From a virus: 23,898 bases of DNA. A model generated the notes under the pieces. That model had not been told where the DNA came from, did no database searches, and was given only the letters and a program-made list of their open reading frames with translations. Shown here in pieces: positions 4,269 to 16,883 of the stretch (positions are counted from its first letter, which is position 1; each line of letters opens with the position of its first letter). The position numbers were made by a program, and so were the translations under genes. The stretch is from the IMG/VR virus record IMGVR_UViG_3300032677_000161, positions 1 to 23,898 of that record; one strand, written 5' to 3'.

Positions 4269-6539
4269 TCAAATATGTTTATTAGCCACAGCCAATGCTT
4301 TTGCAACAGTTGTGTCGTCTAACTTAAGCAAAGACGACGTGTCCTGACTTTGCTCGTTTTTTATCCTATTGGCAAGTGCAATCAGCGCTTCTGCTTTCAA
4401 TTTCGGATTTTTTCCAGTTCTTCCGCCGGTTGCGCGGCCGACTCTGCCTCCAGCGAAGCGTCCGGTTTGTTGATCATTTGCCAACGGAGCTCCTTGCTGG
4501 TTGATGGCTTGGTAATATTTGTTCAGACCTTCGAGCGTGCGTTGGGCGACGGGATCGTTCGCTGCCATTCTTGCGACTTGTGCGAATTGTTTCGGATCCC
4601 CCGAAGCTGCCATCGAGATTGTCCGCTGGGCCACGGCTTTTGCGCGAGCCGCTGCTCCATAAGTGATGGCAACTCCTGGAAGAACACCAAGCAAATATTC
4701 AGGTCTAAAAACGCCGGAAACCATTGCTCCGTCCATAGCTGCCTGAAGGACACCGCCAGCGCCCGATAAACCTAAACCGATTAATCCCTTTTTAAATCCG
4801 ATTGGACTTTTTCCACCGGCTTGCGGCAATTGCTTCGCAGAGGTGTATATGTTTTCCGCCAAAACAGAGTTTCGAACATTATCATAATTCCCGCCCAAAA
4901 CAAGCTGAGCTTTGCGCTGGAATTCTGGGTCGGTTGTCATTTTCTTTGCGAGGACAGAGGCTCCGCCGGGTCGGCCCATATCATCATTCATGCTGCTCAA
5001 AAAGCCATTTTTGAAATAGCTTTTCTGAGTATCATTATATTGATTATATGCGTTTTCGAAATCCGCAGATTTCATCGAGTCGGCTTTTTTGTAAAAATTT
5101 TGACCGGCCTCTGGTGCAGAAACCGAATCGAAAAACTCACTCGCTTTGTCGCGTGCGGCTTGATATTCCGGAGAAACGTTATCGAGGTGATTGACGAACT
5201 GTTTGCGAACCGCATCAATTTGACGAGCGGCGTCTTTATCTCCGCTTATGTTCGCTTTGTTCCATTGGGTATCGAGGTCGCGTTTCACGATGTCCCAAAA
5301 TGCAATATTCCCCGGTTGCTCGCCGGTGGTCGGGGACCATGATGGTTGCTTGAAAAGCGTGGGGTCGATTTCATTCGCAACACGACCTTCCGCATTCACG
5401 ACGGCATCGTGAAAAATCGGGTTTCGCTGAATTGCAGGATCGAGCTCAGATGCATAAATCGAGTTGGATTTTATGTTTGTTGGATCACGAGCAATGTCGT
5501 AAACCTCTTTCAATTCTTTGCGACCTTGATCTTGAATTTGCCCCGTTATCGCAGCAGGATCGAGCGGAGCACCTGTTTCGTTCGTCAGCACCTCATTCAT
5601 TCGAGCCTGAGAATCAGCAAGCCTTGAGTCTTCTCCCGCAACGGTGCTTCCTCGTTTTGGGTTCAACGATGCATTATACTGTCCCGCATTTTCAGGATAT
5701 TTTTTACTTGGAACGATCGAAGCAGCGTCTTCGAGAGCTGCACGAGTTTCCGTTCCACCAATGTCCGCAATGCTCAGCGGAACACCAGTTTTGATCATGT
5801 CTTCCAACTGCGCACGCGAAATTTTCGCAGTTCCATTTTGAAAGTCAGCAGTCAGAGCGGCAATAAGGTTCGCTTGAGAACGAGCGGTTGTCGGAATATT
5901 TTTTACGGCATCGAGAACGTGTCCGGTCGCCATTTGACCGAAAACGTCCGCCGCCGGGCCAAGCACCGCCGCATAAGGACTGTCGCCAACATTTTGACGA
6001 ACGGTTGTTCCGAACACGCCGCCAAGAAGACCTGCTGTTCCCCGAGCCGCCATGCCTTCTGGACCACCAACAAGGTTGGAAACTGCAGATTCAGCTCCTG
6101 ACTGCGCACGCTCTCCCCATTCGGAAGTGGGTTTATAATTGATACCAGTTTCTTCTGGTACGGCTTTTTTTATATCTTCAGAAGTTGGCAACATAGGTTT
6201 GCCGAGTATTTCATTTTCGGCAGCAATATCGCTATATCCTCTGTTATAAACATCAGGGCCACCCGGAGGTTGATACCCCGATTTTTGCAGAAGTTTTTGC
6301 ATTGCCAGTTCATAAATATTGCCAGCTGTTTGCGGCAAATCTCCGCCCATGCCGACAACATCTGCGACGCCACGCTCCAGACCTGAGCCTGTGCCTCTTT
6401 GAAAGTCTTTTGTATTCCAATATTCCGCTTTGCGAGGAGGCGGAACAACGTTGCCTCCTGAAGGCAATGAAAAATCCGTTCCGCTGTCGGCTGGAGTTTC
6501 TTGAGTTGGAACAGGAAATGAAAGATCGTCATCGGCCAT
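4269..6539 (-). CDS. Large internal/ejection-type virion protein
   Basis: A 756-residue protein. The N-terminal region (about 1-75) holds GLERGVADVVGMGGDLPQTA, a glycine-rich amphipathic motif I associate with ejected proteins of podoviruses. The middle (about 250-560) is helical and charged. Residues 586-630 form a hydrophobic stretch that may insert in membrane, followed by Ala-rich helices. The C-terminus has two GGR motifs (697-699, 705-707), then a helical segment with AEALIALANRIK and a final VAKALAVANKHI. The start has GGAA upstream with suitable spacing. Position after the lysozyme-bearing 1341-residue protein suggests the two act together during DNA entry, like the internal core proteins of other podoviruses. 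No enzymatic motif was found; the role is inferred from size, composition and position. Confidence 0.65.
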   Translation of the reverse strand: MADDDLSFPVPTQETPADSGTDFSLPSGGNVVPPPRKAEYWNTKDFQRGTGSGLERGVADVVGMGGDLPQTAGNIYELAMQKLLQKSGYQPPGGPDVYNRGYSDIAAENEILGKPMLPTSEDIKKAVPEETGINYKPTSEWGERAQSGAESAVSNLVGGPEGMAARGTAGLLGGVFGTTVRQNVGDSPYAAVLGPAADVFGQMATGHVLDAVKNIPTTARSQANLIAALTADFQNGTAKISRAQLEDMIKTGVPLSIADIGGTETRAALEDAASIVPSKKYPENAGQYNASLNPKRGSTVAGEDSRLADSQARMNEVLTNETGAPLDPAAITGQIQDQGRKELKEVYDIARDPTNIKSNSIYASELDPAIQRNPIFHDAVVNAEGRVANEIDPTLFKQPSWSPTTGEQPGNIAFWDIVKRDLDTQWNKANISGDKDAARQIDAVRKQFVNHLDNVSPEYQAARDKASEFFDSVSAPEAGQNFYKKADSMKSADFENAYNQYNDTQKSYFKNGFLSSMNDDMGRPGGASVLAKKMTTDPEFQRKAQLVLGGNYDNVRNSVLAENIYTSAKQLPQAGGKSPIGFKKGLIGLGLSGAGGVLQAAMDGAMVSGVFRPEYLLGVLPGVAITYGAAARAKAVAQRTISMAASGDPKQFAQVARMAANDPVAQRTLEGLNKYYQAINQQGAPLANDQQTGRFAGGRVGRATGGRTGKNPKLKAEALIALANRIKNEQSQDTSSLLKLDDTTVAKALAVANKHI

Positions 6540-6556: not shown

Positions 6557-9500
6557 TCACTGTTTAATGCTTGGGAAATAGCGTAGGATATTGTCTCCGT
6601 AGTTTTTCCGGATCCATTCTTTATGCGGCTCGTCGAGGTTTGGACCCATTTTAACAATGTAGCGCAAAACCGTCATCGGTTGTTTTGTTGCAGGATCCTC
6701 CATGACAGGACCATTGGGCTTGCCATTGGTCGTCATCGGATTAAGCATCATCTGTTTCAAAGCATCATGCTCTCTTTCGAGCATTGGACCATTTTTCTTA
6801 AAATACCAATTCGCGAACTGCGAGCCTGTCAAATTCGCAATGTGCGGATCAACGTCTGCCGCAGCATTTCTCCAGTTCAAAGAAGCCTCTTGCATGTCGG
6901 CGCTGTTTTGATTTTGCTGAAGAATGGTTGCGACGTTTTCGGCTGCACCTTCACGGCTCGTCGATTTGGTTGGGAAGGTCGCTTTGAAGTGTTCAAGCGC
7001 AGAGACTGCCCTTTGATTGCCGGAGTTCGCAGCTGCCTGACTCATGTTTTCAACAGCTTTTTCGATTGCTTCCTCATTGGCGAGACCGCCTTGAAGCGAT
7101 TCAGGAACAGACAATCCAAGCGTTTTCGCCAAAGACTGAAGCGCACCGGCCATTGGCTGAACCAATGGGGCCGTTGTTCCGTGCGCATAAACGCCGCTTG
7201 CGGGTTGCTGAGAAACGTTACCGGCATATTCCAAGAGCCGTGGGCGGAGAAGCTGGGCGGCTTTTCCGTCATCGTCATAATCCGTCAAACTGTCGCCCCA
7301 ATTCTTTGCAGCGAACCCTGGCCCAGCGGCCCCGATCCTTTGAGCGGCTTCCGCGACAGCTTTTTTGTCTTCATCCGACAATGCTGTTGGGCCAACATTT
7401 TTCGGAGCAACAACACTTGGCTCGCTGCGAGGAACGACGCCGGTTGGCGCCGCAGGAACTGGGGTTGCAGCAGGAGCTGGGGTTGCAGCAGGAGCCGGAA
7501 GAGGAGCTGAAGAAATTGCCGGAGCTCCTGGGGTCGTTGTCGATCCGCCGCCGAGGCCCGGAGCTGGTTTCCCGCCGAGAGAATTAACATCAGCCTCTGG
7601 CAAAGCAACTTTTGAGGTTGCGATGTGCGTCCGAGGATCGATCATAAGATCGCCATTCTTCATTGCTGCACGAGCGTCTTGGTCTCTCACCCAGTGATAC
7701 ATTCCATCTGGGCCGACAGCTTTGATGAACAGCTCCCCTTGCGGAGAGAACTTCATGCTGTCCGACGAAATTCCTGACCAAACTTCCTGCTCTTTTGCTC
7801 TCGTCAAATCGGTCGCGGCGTTCTGCGTCCTTGTTTCGGCGAGCTGTTGAGCAATTTCAGGCTGCTGCTTATTCAGCGCCATATAGGCCGATGTTCCACC
7901 GACGAGGCCTTCGCCAATCGCTGGCAGGAGATAAGGGCTATGGGACGAAAGCATCGTTCCAACACCTGATAAAAGAGGAACCCAAAGGTTCTCGGAGGTC
8001 GGGAAGTTTTCACCAGCCAAACCTTTTGCCATTTTGCCAATCGGGCCGACCTGCTGAGATTCGTCCGTGTAGGCACCCGACTTTGTTGTTCCTGCCAAAC
8101 CGGGACGAGGCTGCTCTTGAGGTTGAGCAGAAGGAGCCGTTGCAACATCCTCTGTCACGTCCGTTTTTGTTGCGAAAGGAGCAGGAGAGGTCGTGTCTTC
8201 TGCGGTCGCGGTCGAAGGAATTCGCTTGTAATTGTCTACGACTTCCGGGTTGAACCAATCTGGTTTTTGATCGTTGCCGCCACCGATCTGATCGAGACCG
8301 GCAGTTTGACCGAGGCCAGCAGCTTTATTGAAACGCTGAACATATTTCGGAACGGTCGTCCCCGTCACGTCCGAGGTCTGCTGATTCGTTTTCGAAAGCG
8401 GCTTGCCTGTGAACCAAACGGAAGCAGCATCTTGCGGAGTTCCGTATTTTTTCAAAGCATCGCCAAAATAGTTTTTCGCAACGGCTTCCTGAGCATTTTT
8501 ATCAGCAAGGAAATCTTCCGGTGACAAAGAGCGTCCAAGCGTATTTTGCGTCCACTGAGGAACGTTTGAGCCCATAACCTGATATTTGCCATAAGCCCGA
8601 TCACCCGACTTGGTCGTTGGGCCAAGAGCGCCGTAGTTTCCGCCGCTTTCGATCTTTCCGAGCGCAGAAAGCAGATTTCCAATGTCATTTGGATCGGACG
8701 AAGTGTCATCGGGCGCAGTCGCTGGGTCGGAGGAGGAGTTCGGCTTGACAGTTTGGCCACCGGCGTATCCTGCTCGACCGCCCGAAGCAAACATTCTTGC
8801 TAAAGATGCAAGCGCCATAAGATCTTTTATCGTTGGGTCGCCCATTGAACCTGGAAGGTTTGCTTGCTGATTAAGTTTTAAGTTCGACTTTTCGTCAGGA
8901 ATATCCAACGATCCTTGCTGATCTGCGCTGTAAAGACCTTCCGGAGTCCCTCCGCCCATATCGCGATGAATCCGTCCGCCATGAGCCGAAGCAAGAAGGT
9001 CGCCTGTTGCGATTTGACCGTCCGCTGCAGCAAGGCCCATTTGCGCCGGGTCTGCGGCCGCAACCTGCTTCGAGTTGTCCTGAAGGGTATCCGCATCGCT
9101 GGTTTTAGGATTTGTTGCAGGAGGATTATTTGTTGGATCGACTGGAGCCTGTGCGCCTTGCGTTTGGCTCTTTGAATTTTGATTGCCTTGGGTTTCGCCC
9201 TTTTTCGCTGTTAAATTATCGTAAATTTGGCGAAAAAATCCTGCATCATGTTTGTCTGTTTTCGATTGAAAAAGTTCCGCAATATTTTTGCCTTTTTCTA
9301 CTGCACCCAAACCTTGCTCCAAAGCGCTCGGAGGGAGCGCTCCAGCAGAAGCTGGACGAATGAGCTGATTATTTACAGGAAGGCTTCCCGGAACACGCGA
9401 GCCGGGCGCACCAGCCGAAAGCTGACGAGCGGTCGGGACATAACCTTTGCCGATATCTTCCGACATTGCGGCGTGCTTGGAAACGATGTTGTTGATGTTG

Positions 9501-10582
9501 TAGGGATCGTAATATCCTGGGCTGTAGTCTTGACCGACAGCATTGCCCATTGCGTGATGCTCGCGGCCCCCGAGACCATAGCTCATGCCTTCATTTTCAA
9601 TGTTGACTGCGCCGCCTTCTGCTCGCGAGGCTTTTTCGTAATCGACCGTTTTGTATCCGCCCGAAAGCCCGACGGCCTCTGGGTGGACTTTTTCGACTTC
9701 ATCTGCCATGTAGCCGATATGCGTTTGTTCAGTTGGGTCGCCTTTATATTTAAATTTGTAAATCGGGAGACCATTTTTTGATGTGCCGACCTGTTTGATA
9801 TCGTGTTTCAAACGACGATCCGAAAACACCGACATTGGCTGAGTTGTTGTTGTCGTGTTGCCGGAAAGTGCGCCTGTTCCTTCTGCGATGTTCGCGAGGA
9901 ATTGAGCAGTTTGGAATGGATAGGCTTGTTTTTGCAGGAACTGATTGTAGAGCGCTGTATTGCCAGCCTGTGAAGTTTGCTGTTCGAGCGTTCCTGCGCC
10001 GAGTTCTGCTTGAGATCCGGCAAGACCAGCCTGTTGTCCCTGAAGTGCGAAAGTTCCTTCTTGGCCCAATCCGGTCATATAATTTTGGGCAGCGTTTTGA
10101 AAACCTTGATTTTCCATGCCGCCAATGGTTTGGCCAAGGGCGAGATTCTGCTGGTTTTCAAGATTCCCCAGGCCAATGTTGGCTCGATCACCGCCAAACG
10201 CTCCCTGACCAATAGCAGAACCCAGCATTTGCTGTTGCTGCTGCTGATTAACATTGTTCATTTGCGCGACAGTTGAGCCAACCGCATTTTGCAAGAATGG
10301 GTTCATGTAGCCTTGAACGCCGGAAGCAAAACCTTGCGGCGTGAAGCCCTGCTCGACTTGACTCAAAACCGGCTGAGCTGAATTCGCATATTTATTAATA
10401 TCCGAAATGCCCTGCTGCTGCTGAGCGTTGATCGGCGCAACGAACGCATTTGGGTCTGTGCTATAATTTTGAAATGGAGTTTGCGCGACCTGCTGAGCGT
10501 TCGCGTTCACTGCATTATAGCGAGCCAAAACCTCTGGTGGGATTTGAACGCTTTGCGTCGTCGTACCGGTCTTGCCACCCAT
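6557..10582 (-). CDS. Giant virion protein with internal S74 chaperone and lysozyme-like domains
   Basis: A 1341-residue multidomain protein. Residues 1-250 are Gln/Asn/Ala-rich with a QQQQQQ run near 113. Residues 250-320 match the endosialidase-type intramolecular chaperone (peptidase S74): SVFSDRRLKHDI holds the Ser254-Asp255 where relatives self-cleave, then IGYMADEVEKVHPEAV. Residues about 320-610 are disordered with GGR motifs at 338, 535 and 601. Residues about 635-745 look like a lytic transglycosylase/lysozyme fold: ALGKIESGGNYG has the probable catalytic Glu645 and AYGKYQVMG follows. Beyond are Pro/Ala-rich linkers (1010-1050) and a C-terminal helical region. It probably sits inside the virion and opens peptidoglycan during entry. 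CGGAG precedes the ATG, which is one base after the GNAT stop. Domain calls are fairly firm; the location is inferred. Confidence 0.78.
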   Translation of the reverse strand: MGGKTGTTTQSVQIPPEVLARYNAVNANAQQVAQTPFQNYSTDPNAFVAPINAQQQQGISDINKYANSAQPVLSQVEQGFTPQGFASGVQGYMNPFLQNAVGSTVAQMNNVNQQQQQQMLGSAIGQGAFGGDRANIGLGNLENQQNLALGQTIGGMENQGFQNAAQNYMTGLGQEGTFALQGQQAGLAGSQAELGAGTLEQQTSQAGNTALYNQFLQKQAYPFQTAQFLANIAEGTGALSGNTTTTTQPMSVFSDRRLKHDIKQVGTSKNGLPIYKFKYKGDPTEQTHIGYMADEVEKVHPEAVGLSGGYKTVDYEKASRAEGGAVNIENEGMSYGLGGREHHAMGNAVGQDYSPGYYDPYNINNIVSKHAAMSEDIGKGYVPTARQLSAGAPGSRVPGSLPVNNQLIRPASAGALPPSALEQGLGAVEKGKNIAELFQSKTDKHDAGFFRQIYDNLTAKKGETQGNQNSKSQTQGAQAPVDPTNNPPATNPKTSDADTLQDNSKQVAAADPAQMGLAAADGQIATGDLLASAHGGRIHRDMGGGTPEGLYSADQQGSLDIPDEKSNLKLNQQANLPGSMGDPTIKDLMALASLARMFASGGRAGYAGGQTVKPNSSSDPATAPDDTSSDPNDIGNLLSALGKIESGGNYGALGPTTKSGDRAYGKYQVMGSNVPQWTQNTLGRSLSPEDFLADKNAQEAVAKNYFGDALKKYGTPQDAASVWFTGKPLSKTNQQTSDVTGTTVPKYVQRFNKAAGLGQTAGLDQIGGGNDQKPDWFNPEVVDNYKRIPSTATAEDTTSPAPFATKTDVTEDVATAPSAQPQEQPRPGLAGTTKSGAYTDESQQVGPIGKMAKGLAGENFPTSENLWVPLLSGVGTMLSSHSPYLLPAIGEGLVGGTSAYMALNKQQPEIAQQLAETRTQNAATDLTRAKEQEVWSGISSDSMKFSPQGELFIKAVGPDGMYHWVRDQDARAAMKNGDLMIDPRTHIATSKVALPEADVNSLGGKPAPGLGGGSTTTPGAPAISSAPLPAPAATPAPAATPVPAAPTGVVPRSEPSVVAPKNVGPTALSDEDKKAVAEAAQRIGAAGPGFAAKNWGDSLTDYDDDGKAAQLLRPRLLEYAGNVSQQPASGVYAHGTTAPLVQPMAGALQSLAKTLGLSVPESLQGGLANEEAIEKAVENMSQAAANSGNQRAVSALEHFKATFPTKSTSREGAAENVATILQQNQNSADMQEASLNWRNAAADVDPHIANLTGSQFANWYFKKNGPMLEREHDALKQMMLNPMTTNGKPNGPVMEDPATKQPMTVLRYIVKMGPNLDEPHKEWIRKNYGDNILRYFPSIKQ
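7461..7496. repeat. 18-bp direct tandem repeat coding Pro/Ala linker
   Basis: The 18-base unit GGGGTTGCAGCAGGAGCT occurs twice back to back (7461-7478, 7479-7496, the second with a final C) and a degenerate copy precedes them. In the - strand gene it codes the APAATP-type linker near residue 1035 of the 1341-residue protein. It probably arose by slippage and can vary in copy number without changing the frame. Confidence 0.8.
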
Positions 10583-10583
10583 A

Positions 10584-11093
10584 TCAATGCTCCGTCAAAG
10601 TCTCGGCGGCATCATTTTGCCATTCGCCGGTCTTTTTGCCATAAATCCAATAAGCCCCAGATTGAGGCCCAAACTGCCTCTCATAAAGTCGAACCTTGCC
10701 TTCGACTCGTTGAGAGCTAAGAATTCCAATCACCAATGGAATCTGCAAAACTTCTGCTGCCTGTTTTGCGAATTCACAAAGTTTTCGAGCACGCCCACCC
10801 TTTGCACTGCGATACTCAGGATGAACGAAAATCGCCCGTTCGACAATCGTTAAATCATCAGAATACCACAAAGGCTCCGTTCTCAGCAAAATTGCTGCCT
10901 CGAACTGTTCACCCGGATGACCGATAATTCCAACGATCCCATGCTGACGTGTCAGCCCGGCCCAAATCTCATTGAGGAGCTTAGCGGGGTTTGGGTTTGT
11001 CAAACCGTTTTCCTCGCAAGCTGCGAGCGCAAGCTGCATCATTCCGTCGACATCTTCAGCGGTTCCGACGCGAACGCTTAATTCATTATCCAT
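10584..11093 (-). CDS. GNAT-family N-acetyltransferase
   Basis: A 169-residue protein with the order of a GNAT fold. A first strand (VRVGTAEDVDGMMQLA) is followed by the central acetyl-CoA motif A at 87-110: AIFVHPEYRSAKGGRARKL has the strand, the pyrophosphate-loop residues (R-x-x-K-G-G-R-A) and the following helix. A later strand is VIGILS, and the C-terminal region has the typical LYERQFG and YWIYGKK. It would transfer an acetyl group from acetyl-CoA to an unknown amine. The gene sits inside the virion operon, with AGAGGGA about 10 bases upstream of the ATG, and ends one base before the 1341-residue protein. A target in virion or host proteins is possible but unknown. Confidence 0.82.
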   Translation of the reverse strand: MDNELSVRVGTAEDVDGMMQLALAACEENGLTNPNPAKLLNEIWAGLTRQHGIVGIIGHPGEQFEAAILLRTEPLWYSDDLTIVERAIFVHPEYRSAKGGRARKLCEFAKQAAEVLQIPLVIGILSSQRVEGKVRLYERQFGPQSGAYWIYGKKTGEWQNDAAETLTEH

Positions 11094-11099
11094 ATTCGA

Positions 11100-11882
11100 T
11101 TAGTCCCTCTTTGGCCCAGGAAGTTTCTGGAGTGTTTTTATCGTCTTGTTACGATAGCCTTTGACAAAATGATCGAGGATCTCGTGTCCGTGATCAATGT
11201 CGCCATCTCCAAGGCGCGTAACATCATCCGGAGAAATTACATATTCTCCGCCAGCCGCAACGATTTCGACTGGAGCTCTTCCGCCGCTCGCACGAGCGCC
11301 GTATGGTTTTCCCTCGGTGTAGGGCGAGGGGGAAGCTGTGTAGGGTTGTTTCTGCTGATTGAAATAAGGTGACGAACTAAACATGCGCCGGGCGATCTTA
11401 AACCCTGCCATCGTGTTTCCTTCGCCCATGGACGAGATGATGTCGGCCGGGATAACATACGACCCAGACTCAACATTCATCGGCAGATGGTCGGTGCGCC
11501 CTGCGACCGGGGAATGGATCGGGCCTTCATGGACCATGTGGCGGACAGGCTGATCCGAATGGACGTAGGACATGTCGCCTTTGTCATAATTCATGTCGGC
11601 GAATGGGCCACCTTCGGCTTTTGCTGTCCGAGCAGAAACTTTGAACGCTTCAGCAGTCGGTGCGCCTTTTTGGCCAGGCTTCCGCATATGTTCTTTCGAG
11701 CCATGGGCGATGCGCTGTTGCTTCGCGTGTATGTTCGCGTACAAACCTCCGCCACCGGCTTTTGTATGACGGGCGGTGTTCAGTGCCGCCGCAATCGCCT
11801 GATCTTGTGGATGACCGGCGTGGATCATTTCCGAGATGTTATGGCTGATCGTTTGTTTCGATTTTCCGTGTTCCAGCGGCAT
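11100..11882 (-). CDS. Phage protein with duplicated G-x-YVI-x-x-D motif, probable virion component
   Basis: A 260-residue protein. The first 45 residues (LEHGKSKQTISHNISEMI, then QDQAIAAALNTAR) match a small N-terminal motif common in phage structural regions. Two similar segments follow: ESGSYVIPADIISSMGEGN at 138-156 and AAGGEYVISPDDVTRLGDGD at 209-228, each preceded by a Pro-Val or Gly-Arg element. A GGR motif lies at 200-202, like those in the 756- and 1341-residue proteins. The C-terminus is basic (KTIKTLQKLPGPKRD). GAGGT lies before the ATG and overlaps the preceding stop. I recognise the sequence style from phages, but no function is known; an internal virion or assembly role is inferred from its neighbours. 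Confidence 0.65.
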   Translation of the reverse strand: MPLEHGKSKQTISHNISEMIHAGHPQDQAIAAALNTARHTKAGGGGLYANIHAKQQRIAHGSKEHMRKPGQKGAPTAEAFKVSARTAKAEGGPFADMNYDKGDMSYVHSDQPVRHMVHEGPIHSPVAGRTDHLPMNVESGSYVIPADIISSMGEGNTMAGFKIARRMFSSSPYFNQQKQPYTASPSPYTEGKPYGARASGGRAPVEIVAAGGEYVISPDDVTRLGDGDIDHGHEILDHFVKGYRNKTIKTLQKLPGPKRD

Positions 11883-11891
11883 TTTGCGACC

Positions 11892-12242
11892 TCAAGTGTA
11901 TGTGGCAGAAGCGGTAGGGGTGCCAGTTTTCATAACAAGCCCAGTCGCAAAAGGAATTTGAATCTGGACAACACCGAGGTTTGTTCCAGGGATAACACAA
12001 ATTTCATTCCCGGTCGTGTTTGTTGTGCTGTTCGTATCGTAAAAAGTTACAATATCACCAGTTGAGATGATACTAACATTTGCCAACCAACCAGAAGAAG
12101 ATTTTACAAGAAACGTTGTCGAGGCGGCAACCTTTTTTGTGTTGTTCGTACCGGCGTGCAGATTGATTGCGCTGACGTAGGCATTGATTGCTTGAACGCC
12201 GTTTTTCTGTGTTGTTAGGATATCGTCTAAACTTGCAGCCAT
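11892..12242 (-). CDS. Conserved small structural-region protein
   Basis: A 116-residue protein starting ASLDDILTTQKNGVQAIN, a common beginning for small proteins next to the nozzle gene in podovirus-like genomes. The first third is helical, and the remaining two thirds read as beta strands (KVAASTTFLVKSSSGWLANVS, then VVQIQIPFATGLVMK), suggesting a helix plus beta-sandwich. Its ATG shares one base with the TAA of the nozzle gene (TAATG), so the two are translationally coupled. It may be a minor tail or internal component. The function is not established. Confidence 0.7.
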   Translation of the reverse strand: MAASLDDILTTQKNGVQAINAYVSAINLHAGTNNTKKVAASTTFLVKSSSGWLANVSIISTGDIVTFYDTNSTTNTTGNEICVIPGTNLGVVQIQIPFATGLVMKTGTPTASATYT

Positions 12243-15200
12243 TAGAATTTTCCATCCAGTTGATAGCGATATCTTATTGCGCCAATTCGGAAAAAAGTAT
12301 TCAAAGAGGCGGTTCCTCTTTGGTCAACGGTTGTTACAGAAATCGAAAGAAGACGAGCGCGAATTCTGCAGCTTATATACTGGACGTTCTGGTCCATGTA
12401 ATATGGGCCATAGGCCGTTTGCGGCCCATCGGGATAGTCCGCTCCATAAAAAGTCATATAGAGCTGAATCGGGTTGGTGGCCCCATCCGCTGTTTGCCAT
12501 TTGAAATCGGGCCAAATCTGATCGACGAAAACAAGGTTGTCCGCTTCGTTCAGCTGAATGTATCCGGTTTGAAATGAACAAACCATTGGATTAATATCAT
12601 TATCGTAACCGACTTCATGCTGATAAATGTAGCCTTTGTTGTCGGAGCCAATCGGAGTTCCGAGAACAGACTGATCGACCCAAGCGGTTCTTGCCAACGT
12701 GCCATAATCCCACTGCTGGGTATAAACATTATATTTTACGTAGGCATTGTTGTAGGAGCTGCCGGTCGTCGGATAATACCAAGTCACTTCCCCAAACGTC
12801 GAATTCGTTGCGCAACGAATGAGGGAATAAAGGTTTGTGTTGATATTCTGATAGATTTGATCCCAAACCGGACAAGCCAATGGCTGAGGGCCGGTCGAGG
12901 AAAGCATGCAAAATTTTTCGGGAGACATCCAATAAACATTGCCACCAAGAATTCCGACAGCCTTTTTACCGATGAGGCCCATTCCGTCTGCGATTTTATT
13001 GAATCCATAAACATTCGAACCGCCAACATATTGCATCGCCCAAACTGAAATGTTTGTCCAGATCAGGGCTTGTTGCGGGCCTTGAATTCCGCCGACGATG
13101 CTGCTTCCTTCTGGGATGCGATAGCTTCCTGCCTGATTGTTTGCGGAGGCAATCCAAGTCGTCGCATCTGCGGCATCCGACCAACGAATAAGGAGAGGGT
13201 CTTGAATGCCAGTGGCCGTTGAGCCATAAGCCACGAGCTGACGTGCAGGCATCGCAATAAAAATGCCATGATTCAGAAGCGGCGCGTTTGCGAGAAGGAA
13301 CGCATCCGTCGTATTATTCGTCGGAGACCAATAATAGATCGGACCATTTTCAGGATTGGCAATTAAAATTTCGCCAAAATTATTAATTACCCAATCGGAA
13401 ACACCCGACAAAGGAATTCCGCTCGGATAGCTCGTTTTTATCCCAAGGCCATATCCGACGGAAGCAGTAAAAAAAGAAGCGGTAAATGACGAGGTTGTCG
13501 TGTTGCCCGAAATACCACCCGGCGTAATGCTCAAATACCAAACAGTTCCGCTTCCACTTGTGATATACGGATAAAGCCCTTGGTTATTTAGGGAGATAGC
13601 GCTTCCAGTAACAAGCTGATTTAGCGCAACATTGGAATTTGCCGTGCTGAGGGTGATATATGCGTAATTTGTATAGTTCGCAGTGAAAGTTCCGGAACCT
13701 CCCGCCGTAACGCTTATTGGAGATCCATTTTGCGTCATCGAAACGTTATATGTCGTGCTCAAAGATGAATTGACGACATAATAAATCGTATTAAGTGTAA
13801 GGCTGGTCGGAAGGGAGCCTCCGGAGCTAACTGTAAATGTTAAGGCTGTTCCATTCGGAGGCGCATTGCCAGAAACTGTTATGACCGCCGGAGAAGCAGG
13901 TTGAGCAATTGTAACAGTTTGACTCGCGACAGAGGTTATGGTGCTTAATTGCGTTGCGGCTGGGCTGCCAGGATAACCAACGTAACCACCGTATTCCCCT
14001 GAACCATATCCGCTTGCACCATAAAGAGATGGGATATTGTAATAATAAACAATGTGAGCATTGCCATTGTTCATATAAAAACTAGCAGAGGCGGTCGCCG
14101 GGGAAGAAGAACTAATTGTATATCTATAAGAAGGATTTGTCGCGTCCAAAGTCGCGATATAATTCCCATAGATTGTAACCCCATTCGATGTCGTTGGATA
14201 CAAAAACGAAGCGGTTTGTCCGTTAATATAAGGCTGATTATATTCGGTAACCGTTACGGTTGTTGTTCCAGAATTGGTGGAAAATTGTGGAAGCAGCGGC
14301 CCATTGGCCAATGAAGTCGCAACACCGACAGAAGCGCTTGCAGGAGAAGCATTGGCTTGAATCGCATAAACGCTAAAAAATTGATTACCGCTCAAAGCTC
14401 CAATAACAGAATAAACTCCGCTCAGCAAAATCGTTTGGATGCTGATAGGAGTTTGAATATTAATATTAAATCCTGTTTGGATTTGATTCGGATTGTAAAG
14501 CGTTAAATTCGTCGCAGAGGTTGCCGAATTTACAATCGCGGTTCCGCCAGAAGTTAGCGAAAGATTAAACGTATTCGAAGAAACCGGTAAAACGTAATAA
14601 GGCGTATTTGCTGCAATTGAGGAGCCTGTAATTGAACCGGTGAAATAAATTTGCGTTGTTGAAACAGGAGTGGTTGTCGCGGTGACGAGGACGTTTCCGC
14701 TTCCGTCCGAACCGACCGAAACACCTGTTTGAACACCCAAAGCGGTATCCGTAATATAAACATAAGGTGAGTTTGCGACCATCGCAAAAGGCGCAACAGA
14801 CATAGTATTTGCACCGGAGGTTACTCCCGTAGCAAAAACCGCTTGCGCTCCGCCCCAAGGAGTTGCAGAAAGCGTAATAACTCCAGCAGAAGCGCTAAAA
14901 ATCCAATATACTGTATTTGCAATAACATTTCCGGAGGTCGATGTAAAATAAACCGCTGTTCCGATTCCCCAAAGGCTCGAAACGGTAATTCCGTTGCTTG
15001 TGGTAAATGTTACTGATTGAGAAACTGCTGTCGTTAATGAAACGTTAGCTGCGTTTAGTTCTGGAGTTATATTGGTGTAAGTTTGCGAAGGGCTGGTAAT
15101 ATACGAAAGTTCGTTTTGTGCCCCAATCGCGAGGCGCTGCTGTCCGTTCAAATCTTCCCAAGCATGAAGCTCGTTGATTTGAGAAGAAATGTTTATACCT

Positions 15201-15361
15201 GGCGCCCAATTTACCCAGCCGCCGAGCTTCTGAATAAGGCCCATTCCATTTCGATCAGGCTGAAATCGAATAAGCTGAGAGGAGGAAAACGCCGCTTCGT
15301 TCAAAGCTGGCGTTTTTGTTGTATCGACTCCAGGAATTAATTTCATCGTTGCATGAGGCAT
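12242..15361 (-). CDS. Tail nozzle / packaged-DNA-stabilisation-type protein with large insertion
   Basis: A 1039-residue protein. Residues 1-95 (LIPGVDTTKTPAL, SSSQLIRFQ, GLIQKLGGWVNW) and the C-terminal 400 residues (LLIRWSDAADATTWI, AGSYRIPEGSSIVGG, WAMQYVGGSNVYGF, GLIGKKAVGILGGNVYWMS) match the family of podoviral tail-hub proteins related to packaged-DNA stabilisation proteins and nozzle proteins. These close the portal channel below the adaptor and form the tail tip. Between them about 530 residues (110-640) of Ser/Thr/Gly-rich beta repeats interrupt the usual architecture, which would be compatible with surface-exposed domains. Three copies of a T-x-Y-T...NTxYYV...T repeat lie there. 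GAGG is found 11 bases before the ATG. The family call is strong; the insertion's role is unknown. Confidence 0.8.
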   Translation of the reverse strand: MPHATMKLIPGVDTTKTPALNEAAFSSSQLIRFQPDRNGMGLIQKLGGWVNWAPGINISSQINELHAWEDLNGQQRLAIGAQNELSYITSPSQTYTNITPELNAANVSLTTAVSQSVTFTTSNGITVSSLWGIGTAVYFTSTSGNVIANTVYWIFSASAGVITLSATPWGGAQAVFATGVTSGANTMSVAPFAMVANSPYVYITDTALGVQTGVSVGSDGSGNVLVTATTTPVSTTQIYFTGSITGSSIAANTPYYVLPVSSNTFNLSLTSGGTAIVNSATSATNLTLYNPNQIQTGFNINIQTPISIQTILLSGVYSVIGALSGNQFFSVYAIQANASPASASVGVATSLANGPLLPQFSTNSGTTTVTVTEYNQPYINGQTASFLYPTTSNGVTIYGNYIATLDATNPSYRYTISSSSPATASASFYMNNGNAHIVYYYNIPSLYGASGYGSGEYGGYVGYPGSPAATQLSTITSVASQTVTIAQPASPAVITVSGNAPPNGTALTFTVSSGGSLPTSLTLNTIYYVVNSSLSTTYNVSMTQNGSPISVTAGGSGTFTANYTNYAYITLSTANSNVALNQLVTGSAISLNNQGLYPYITSGSGTVWYLSITPGGISGNTTTSSFTASFFTASVGYGLGIKTSYPSGIPLSGVSDWVINNFGEILIANPENGPIYYWSPTNNTTDAFLLANAPLLNHGIFIAMPARQLVAYGSTATGIQDPLLIRWSDAADATTWIASANNQAGSYRIPEGSSIVGGIQGPQQALIWTNISVWAMQYVGGSNVYGFNKIADGMGLIGKKAVGILGGNVYWMSPEKFCMLSSTGPQPLACPVWDQIYQNINTNLYSLIRCATNSTFGEVTWYYPTTGSSYNNAYVKYNVYTQQWDYGTLARTAWVDQSVLGTPIGSDNKGYIYQHEVGYDNDINPMVCSFQTGYIQLNEADNLVFVDQIWPDFKWQTADGATNPIQLYMTFYGADYPDGPQTAYGPYYMDQNVQYISCRIRARLLSISVTTVDQRGTASLNTFFRIGAIRYRYQLDGKF
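13682..14956 (-). repeat. Three diverged beta-repeat units in the nozzle insertion
   Basis: Units at residues 136-178, 237-285 and 506-560 (about 14828-14956, 14507-14653 and 13682-13846) share a pattern: a strand of the form VYFT, a variable loop, NTxYYV (VIANTVYW, AANTPYYV, TLNTIYYV), then T(F/Y)NLS and GGT/GGS endings. This type of unit is widespread in phage adhesins. Units are protein-level repeats only; the DNA has diverged too much to be a recent duplication. Confidence 0.7.
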
Positions 15362-16164: not shown

Positions 16165-16680
16165 CTATTCGGCCATTTTTGCAGAAATATCTTTAACAAA
16201 AGAAACCCGGTTGCCCCAACCATGGCCATCATGTGCCCACCCTGGCAAAGATTGCAAGAAGGCGAGCCTATTATCGCAGATTTGCGCCGATAAGTCAATG
16301 GGACTGATTGACTGAACCGCTGCTAATGTGGCAGGACCAATGGCTCCATCCTGAGTTACCCCGCAACAAGCCTGAAGAACTTTCGCTGCTCGCCCATCGC
16401 CTGAATTCACTTCAAAATCAAACACCGCATAATCAACTCCCAAAGGGAGGTCATCGCCGTGATTTTTATCCCAGTATTGGGTTTTGTAAAATGGCATGAC
16501 AAGATCAGGCGTCAGTCCGCGCATCGTCTCTTCGTCGATTTCATGCCCGACATAAGCTTCCCATGCTCGCTTCGTAACACCGAGATTCGTCATTCCGCCC
16601 GGATCGAGCGGATCATTAACGTATCCGCCTTCTTCTTTCAAAACGAGCGCAAAACATTGAGCAAAATTACTCGCAGCCAT
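16165..16680 (-). CDS. GH108-type endolysin (muramidase) with C-terminal peptidoglycan-binding domain
   Basis: A 171-residue protein. The EGGYVNDPLDPGGMTNLGVT motif at 17-36 has the catalytic Glu17 of the GH108 family, which cleaves the bond between N-acetylmuramic acid and N-acetylglucosamine. Residues about 90-125 (VLQACCGVTQDGAIGPATLAAV) form the start of the usual C-terminal peptidoglycan-binding part. No signal peptide or SAR anchor is present, so it needs a holin for export, consistent with a holin candidate in the same cassette. I chose the start at 16680 because GGAG lies 8 bases upstream; a longer frame from 16707 is possible but lacks that spacing. The ATG shares a base with the o-spanin stop (TAATG). 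Confidence 0.88.
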   Translation of the reverse strand: MAASNFAQCFALVLKEEGGYVNDPLDPGGMTNLGVTKRAWEAYVGHEIDEETMRGLTPDLVMPFYKTQYWDKNHGDDLPLGVDYAVFDFEVNSGDGRAAKVLQACCGVTQDGAIGPATLAAVQSISPIDLSAQICDNRLAFLQSLPGWAHDGHGWGNRVSFVKDISAKMAE

Positions 16681-16883
16681 TATTTTTCTCCGCAAAATTG
16701 TTTCCACTTATCGTCGTGGGCGAGAATCTCGCTAGCGGTTGGGGTCGAAAGTTTGTCGGTTTTGCGAACAAAAATAGGTTTTACCCAATCGCAAGAAGTG
16801 TCGACGATTTTTGTTTCGGGCTTCATGCAGGCAGAAAGGAAACTAACCATCAAAACGACGGTAAATAACTTACTTACTTTCAT
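16680..16883 (-). CDS. Outer-membrane lipoprotein, probable o-spanin (Rz1-like)
   Basis: A 67-residue protein. A short basic start (MKVSK) and hydrophobic stretch lead to the lipobox LSAC with Cys19 (counting from this start), so it is a lipoprotein. The mature part has CDWVKPIFVRKTDKLSTP, then TASEILAHDDKWKQFC, a pattern I know from small lipoproteins in phage lysis cassettes. The start at 16883 is supported by GGAG at 16890-16893, six bases away; a further upstream ATG lies inside that GGAG. The gene overlaps the end of the inner-membrane partner by ATGA, the usual arrangement for two-component spanins. A two-component spanin connects inner and outer membrane at lysis. The lipoprotein call is strong; the spanin role is inferred. 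Confidence 0.78.
   Translation of the reverse strand: MKVSKLFTVVLMVSFLSACMKPETKIVDTSCDWVKPIFVRKTDKLSTPTASEILAHDDKWKQFCGEK

Follow-up and report, generated by a model that had tools for sequence, protein, structure and literature searches.

An S74 domain inside a long virion gene

The window (the whole stretch of DNA analysed, 23,898 nucleotides of the viral IMG/VR record IMGVR_UViG_3300032677_000161) carries an operon of virion genes on its minus strand, and the subject of this work is one of them, an open reading frame (ORF) of 1341 residues with an S74 domain that begins within the segment SVFSDRRLKHDIKQV (residues 251–265). The Pfam family Peptidase_S74 (PF13884) matches residues 254–304 along positions 1–57 of its 58-position profile with E=1e-10 and a score of 42.2 bits, and given a cut-off of 22 the match cannot be put down to chance. 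A chance or decayed S74 match was dropped as an explanation, since motif and core are too conserved. The initial annotation, made from the letters alone, was therefore right in seeing an S74 domain followed by some 1000 further residues. A profile of 61 copies of this shortened domain, for which we coin the name mini-S74, retrieves S74/ICA proteins of solved structure, namely 6f45 (T5-type fibre, E=9e-4), 7dc3 (MYRF, 2e-3), 8jov (0.011) and 3gud (GA-1 appendage, 0.07). Searching PDB sequences directly with the full-length protein (phmmer) gave nothing useful.

Downstream of the S74 domain lies a muralytic region, where phrog_24990 is matched with E=1.3e-18, and tblastn finds phage tape-measure and 'glycosylase' proteins with 37–50% identity within residues 624–790. 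Glu645 is a candidate catalytic residue on the basis of an ESGG motif. The lysozyme-like domain that had been placed at 635–745 is thus real, if less sharply defined than the S74 domain: Pfam SLT (PF01464) stays below threshold here (12.6 bits on a sub-fragment against 21.3, E=0.1), and is passed by one relative, locus L067, with 34.9 bits.

Fusion of two ejection genes

Comparison with related phages and viral loci (handles beginning with L) gives well-supported grounds for regarding the gene as a fusion of an S74-terminated P22 gp7-like protein with the product of the next gene, an ejection protein that degrades peptidoglycan. Residues 1–320 are the counterpart of a separate S74-ended protein of ~330 residues that occupies the slot of P22 gp7, a DNA-ejection protein, in many podophages. 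The profile phrog_4287 ('DNA ejection protein') matches window residues 1–317 along positions 4–385 of 392 (E=4.9e-07; 3.3e-29 in L030), phrog_6121 ('virion structural protein') matches residues 74–321, and phrog_1980 also matches within 1–321; these profiles are 392–449 positions long, and the S74 domain of the window aligns to their C-terminal ends. Twenty-seven distinct copies of the domain are internal, with 691–1116 residues after them, and 53 are C-terminal, with 1–17. In 14 GenBank regions the S74 genes likewise end soon after the domain; AP013548.1, of the fibre type, has a longer tail after S74.

Gene order tells the same story. In phiGT1, pCB2047-C, EBPR podovirus 2, RHph_I3_18 and OH a stabilisation or tail tubular gene is followed by an acetyltransferase gene (where annotated), the S74 gene and a gene for an internal virion protein or peptidoglycan hydrolase; the window has this order with the last two genes joined. 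The gene next to S74 matches a muralytic or endolysin family in five of the eight split viruses scanned (L062, phiGT1, pCB2047-C, EBPR podovirus 2 and RHph_I3_18), and in L062 this separate ORF is homologous to the lysozyme region of the window protein (iE 5e-22) and matches phrog_24990 with E=1e-82. The shared order, the position of S74 at C-terminal ends and the L062 homology together identify the window gene as a fusion. A sequencing or assembly error as its source was rejected, as L002 (an independent contig, 98% identical) and other relatives share the single frame. S74 does lie near the N-terminus, at 254–304 of 1341, but because an S74-terminated gp7-like gene was joined to the next gene, the domain remains on the C-terminal side of its presumed client.

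Searches for fused relatives gave 41 related viral loci and the annotated 61-kb circular genome MW202675.1. Pfam and PHROG scans each covered seven fused relatives, six of them shared. Their downstream modules vary, with SLT in L067 (sub-threshold in L012), phrog_24990 in L003, and endolysin or tape-measure families in L030 and L039; no muralytic match was found in L017 and L042 with PHROGs or in L071, which was scanned by Pfam only. It follows that the front half is kept and the muralytic half swapped. In six relatives (L021, L029, L030, L032, L037 and L041) a second S74 stands ~230–320 residues further on, after a Gly/Ala-rich stretch, the two copies lying at residues ~281–302 and 515–624 of the ORF. 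A tree of 88 mini-S74 rows, built on only 66 columns and without L103 and L112, leaves 35 forks open and has several joins of long branches; it unites five of the six second copies (support 96), with that of L032 outside, which suggests an origin by internal duplication. Its starred branches require the internal position to have arisen at least once; a single fusion is compatible with them, and several origins are not forced.

A probable internal ejection protein

The initial annotation had also proposed an internal or entry protein instead of a fibre, and this is supported by gene order, by PHROG 'DNA ejection' matches and by the muralytic modules. Among split relatives phrog_598 ('DNA ejection') matches the S74 proteins of PAE2 (E=6e-30), PspP-H6/1 (4e-16) and 199E37-1 (1.5e-12); in PAE2 it covers residues 3–228 and stops before S74, and in the others it ends before or barely reaches the domain. 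Two of these proteins are named 'putative ejection protein' and 'putative DNA transfer protein' in their records, and matches and names together place these S74 proteins in the gp7 slot. The phrog_598 match is found in split relatives only; the window protein is related to a DNA-ejection family through phrog_4287. In the window and in split phages alike, the gene stands behind those for tail tubular B/stabilisation and accessory functions, with the other ejection genes following, and in the phiM5 record both the S74 protein and the product of the next gene carry the remark 'detected in phage particle proteome'. On a hydropathy scan the window protein showed no strong segment and its relatives only scattered ones, so we do not claim a membrane-pore role for the N-terminal part.

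Homologues are named 'tail fiber domain-containing protein' or 'putative tailspike' in their records, and a reader following these names would take the protein for a tail fibre or tailspike. We consider this very improbable, as Pfam and PHROG scans gave no receptor or beta-helix family match, the N-terminal part is Q/N-rich and predicted helical with muralytic modules downstream, the gene occupies an ejection slot and matches DNA-ejection profiles, and the window has separate fibre-type genes lacking S74. The fibre and tailspike labels on mini-S74 proteins in the ejection slot (OP596614.1, MF074189.1, MT028492.1) are probably wrong.

A shortened S74 domain

The published order of elements in the ICA domain is alpha1-beta1-alpha2-beta2-alpha3-beta3-beta4-alpha4 (PMC8326128). 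An AlphaFold2 (AF2) model of the S74 domain alone, with a predicted local distance difference test (pLDDT) score of ~80 in the core, runs strand-strand-strand-helix-strand-strand-six-residue helix. It departs from canonical ICA at both ends: a beta-hairpin stands in the place of alpha1 after the dyad, and the alpha4 coiled coil is absent, a six-residue helix and then a Gly-rich linker being all that is found there. Loss of alpha4 is general, as the 53 distinct C-terminal copies stop 1–17 residues past the domain; two fibre-type S74 copies have longer tails of 23 and 27 residues, and a third fibre-type ORF (L042, a weak match) has one of 33.

When residues 1–345 are modelled together, the S74 core alone is confident and the N-terminal part is all-helical at pLDDT mostly <50, compared with the triple beta-helix or beta stalk upstream of canonical ICA. 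Foldseek gave no match at E<=0.001 with either the 1–345 or the S74-only model, the former mixing low-confidence helices with the domain. The top VIA-align rows, MyRF 7dc3 (Z 3.3, root-mean-square deviation 5.9 over 63 residues) and GA-1 3gud (Z 3.2), are too weak to serve as proof of fold. With alpha1 and alpha4 missing, S74 activity cannot simply be carried over from MYRF.

Conservation of Ser, Asp and Lys

Alignment with the MYRF and endoNF dyad predicts Ser254 and Lys259 (Ser+5) as the catalytic pair, with Lys259 and not Asp255 as the partner of Ser254. Our main conservation counts rest on a profile from which the SD...K motif had been left out, and part of the loci were found by peptide patterns that also lack it; 121 domain hits in 114 ORFs at 112 loci were reduced to 91 distinct copies and to 57 representatives with <80% identity. 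In these representatives Asp is present in 56/56, Lys in 56/57 and Ser in 55/56, all three falling within the seven most conserved columns, while the intervening Arg (Ser+3) drifts (49/57). The single Ser departure is a misalignment of a fibre-type ORF with its true motif upstream, and the single Lys departure comes from the frame-broken L112. Column counts from a separate motif-based search are circular for these residues and were not used in the conservation argument.

After prior removal of L112, and scoring a copy if the motif stood within 70 residues upstream, SD...K with Lys at Ser+5 was found in 90 of 90 distinct intact copies. The Ser is encoded by both codon families (TCN in 85 copies, AGC in five). 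Within the short stretch checked in another count, 92 of 97 distinct copies have the motif; it lies further upstream in L049, L052, L057 and L023, and L112 is the fifth. Loss of Ser or Lys in close relatives, which had been named as the outcome that would speak against an active site, is thus not what we see, the pair being kept in all 42 ORFs of the initial set of relatives, including that of the window, as well as in the 90 copies. The mini-S74 ORF of L112 (~4332–4634) has lost its frame on the upstream side, either through sequencing error or as a decayed gene.

Predicted self-cleavage

We propose, from sequence and by analogy, that the mini-S74 cuts before Ser254, turning the fused precursor into a gp7-like ejection protein of 253 residues and a muralytic protein of 1088. 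In this scheme copies of the precursor would first assemble and each mini-S74 would then cut its own chain, releasing protein 1–253 and the S74-headed protein 254–1341, so that the one fused gene would have the same two products as the separate genes. We infer both the timing and a further element, that assembly of the ejection protein stands in for the alpha4 coiled coil. The site differs by one residue from that first suggested (between Ser254 and Asp255, with products of 254 and 1087 residues), because the MYRF cut, P577|S578, lies N-terminal to Ser (PMC3742443); the predicted new N-terminus is Ser254. MYRF is also the precedent for a mid-chain S74/ICA that splits a protein into two halves (PMC3742443).

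The chief competing explanation is that the mini-S74 no longer cuts and has become an assembly or oligomerisation module, the 1341-residue protein working intact with both parts linked through the portal. This is a serious possibility, though we would put it somewhat below even odds. It would fit the loss of alpha1 and alpha4, the internal position with hundreds of residues downstream in the 27 copies mentioned, and the example of T7 gp16, a large ejection protein in which the muralytic domain is part of a single long chain (PMC8954989). It does not explain why Ser, Asp and Lys remain among the most conserved columns of 57 divergent representatives when the neighbouring Arg drifts. A MYRF Lys-to-Ala mutant and a Ser-to-Ala form of endoNF still make the pre-cleavage oligomer (PMC3742443, PMC8326128), so the two residues are dispensable for the fold in those proteins, and their retention here is what chiefly leads us to think that the mini-S74 remains active.

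Several points weigh against cleavage and the scheme built on it. MYRF mutants in the alpha4 leucine zipper are left uncut (PMC3742443), alpha4 is described as the main trimerisation force (PMC8326128), and neither this helix nor alpha1 is present in the mini-S74. Cleavage of endoNF involves Arg897 of the upstream triple beta-helix (PMC8326128), for which no counterpart is evident here, the upstream region being predicted helical. In the fused clade about one third of S74 columns are invariant, so that invariance of Ser and Lys says little within that clade and it is the wider set that carries the argument; even there, conservation could mean that the site is kept without being used. As to the split relatives, the next gene showed no match to a muralytic family in three of the eight scanned (phiM5, PAE2 and ppBeUSDA76-2; the phiM5 record nevertheless labels it 'internal virion protein/exolysin'), and two of ten split S74 proteins fall below the Pfam cut-off. 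The differences in alpha4 and in the upstream Arg, together with the fact that we found no experiment on the mini-S74 family in the literature searched, lead us to set the probability of cleavage before Ser254 at about one half.

Cleavage might instead serve to produce a separate chaperone, consisting of S74 itself or of the segment between tandem S74s, and another protease would then act downstream, for example at Gly-Gly motifs of the linker. A cut before Ser in the C-terminal relatives would release an S74 piece of ~70 residues, Gly-Gly linker motifs recur in three virion ORFs, and a host protease is known to trim P22 gp7 (PMC4992974). Such motifs are, however, commonplace in low-complexity linkers, and both protease and site are hypothetical, which makes this unlikely in our judgement.

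Gene neighbourhood

The features of the locus are listed in Table 1. The tail tubular B-type gene takes the position held by 'phage stabilization protein' in MW202675.1. Between it and the acetyltransferase gene, a 260-residue ORF (11100–11882, minus strand) has, by eye, two internal segments of the type YVI(P/S)(A/P)D and PHROG matches of unknown function only. A second, separate muralytic gene at 16165–16707 (minus strand) encodes a GH108-type endolysin (PF05838, E=2e-25). Motifs of the A.GG or GYA.GG type recur in three virion ORFs of the operon, at residues 696–712 of the 756-residue ORF, 321–325, 533–537 and 599–611 of the 1341-residue ORF, and 42–46, 89–93 and 198–213 of the 260-residue ORF; they could reflect linker composition or be protease sites.

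Table 1. Features of the fused ejection gene and its neighbours in the window
Feature	Position	Strand	Basis or remark
Fused ejection protein (gp7-like module, mini-S74, muralytic module, C-terminal region)	6557..10582	-	1341 aa; single ORF also in relatives
Residues 1-253, Q/N-rich, predicted helical; predicted N-terminal cleavage product	9824..10582	-	phrog_4287, phrog_6121, AF2
Residues 254-320, mini-S74 domain	9623..9823	-	PF13884 and AF2
Ser254 codon, predicted nucleophile; predicted cut Phe253/Ser254	9821..9823	-	Alignment to MYRF and endoNF dyad; conservation
Lys259 codon, predicted general base (Ser+5)	9806..9808	-	Alignment to MYRF/endoNF dyad; conservation
Residues 321-617, low-complexity linker with Gly-Gly motifs, where the alpha4 coiled coil would stand	8732..9622	-	Sequence
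Residues 618-757, lytic-transglycosylase-like (muralytic) region	8312..8731	-	phrog_24990; homology to next-gene ORF of L062
Residues 758-1341, remainder of ejection protein, without family match in Pfam/PHROG scans	6560..8311	-	
Gene following the fused one, 756 aa, presumably for the final ejection protein of the operon	4269..6539	-	phrog_5880 (unknown function) and position
GNAT acetyltransferase gene directly upstream	10584..11093	-	Weak Pfam/PHROG matches; order as in split relatives
Virion protein of tail tubular B / DNA-stabilisation type, first in the conserved gene order	12242..15361	-	phrog_3287 E=1.1e-53

Relation to known systems and implications

The window protein resembles endoNF, the L-shaped tail fibre of T5 and the GA-1 neck appendage in its PF13884 match, in sequence matches to the solved structures, in the Ser-x4-Lys dyad and, judging from split relatives, in having S74 C-terminal to the presumed client. 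It differs from them in lacking alpha1, the alpha4 coiled coil and any sign of an upstream triple beta-helix, and in that its client is a predicted-helical ejection protein with S74 in mid-chain. The eukaryotic MYRF ICA shares the mid-chain position and the dyad, and its cut produces two functional halves, but it keeps alpha1 and a leucine-zipper alpha4 (PMC8326128) and its flanking domains are unrelated.

P22 gp7, with PHROG 598 and 4287, shares gene position and sequence match with S74-bearing relatives. At 229 residues (PMC8954989) it is similar in size to the predicted N-terminal product, whose 253 residues slightly exceed the 181–240 given for gp14/gp7-type proteins in the same source. 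In contrast to the window protein, gp7 is too short for such a module plus S74 and is not fused to a muralytic protein, and a host protease trims it at the N-terminus prior to assembly (PMC4992974). The closest parallels in gene order are Sulfitobacter phage phiGT1 (genes 17 and 18), pCB2047-C and EBPR podovirus 2, where an S74-ended protein is likewise followed by a muralytic internal virion protein, with two genes in place of one.

S74 on proteins of the ejection slot is already annotated in database records, and the domain has been described in tail fibres, tailspikes 'and other proteins' of low complexity (PMC7824862). A literature search that left most subscription journals outside its reach found no account of S74 self-cleavage of an ejection protein or of the fused form. 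Tentatively, and at rather less than even odds, we extend the proposal to an uncultured podophage-type clade that may make its DNA-ejection machine as self-cutting polyproteins, in which minimal, coiled-coil-free S74s, single or in tandem, would divide one gene product into two or three ejection proteins. The cut would be licensed by the assembly of these proteins, which would take over the role of folding sensor from the S74 trimer.

If the proposed cleavage takes place, S74 would be a processing element of an internal injection machine, beyond its part in the maturation of fibres and spikes, and this would account for a number of ejection-slot proteins bearing the name 'tail fiber domain-containing protein'. 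Split and fused versions would lend themselves to a natural comparison, since the same pair of proteins would come from two genes in one case and from a single self-cutting precursor in the other. A domain without a coiled coil would also test what minimal S74 is sufficient for the cut, and would thereby bear on MYRF.

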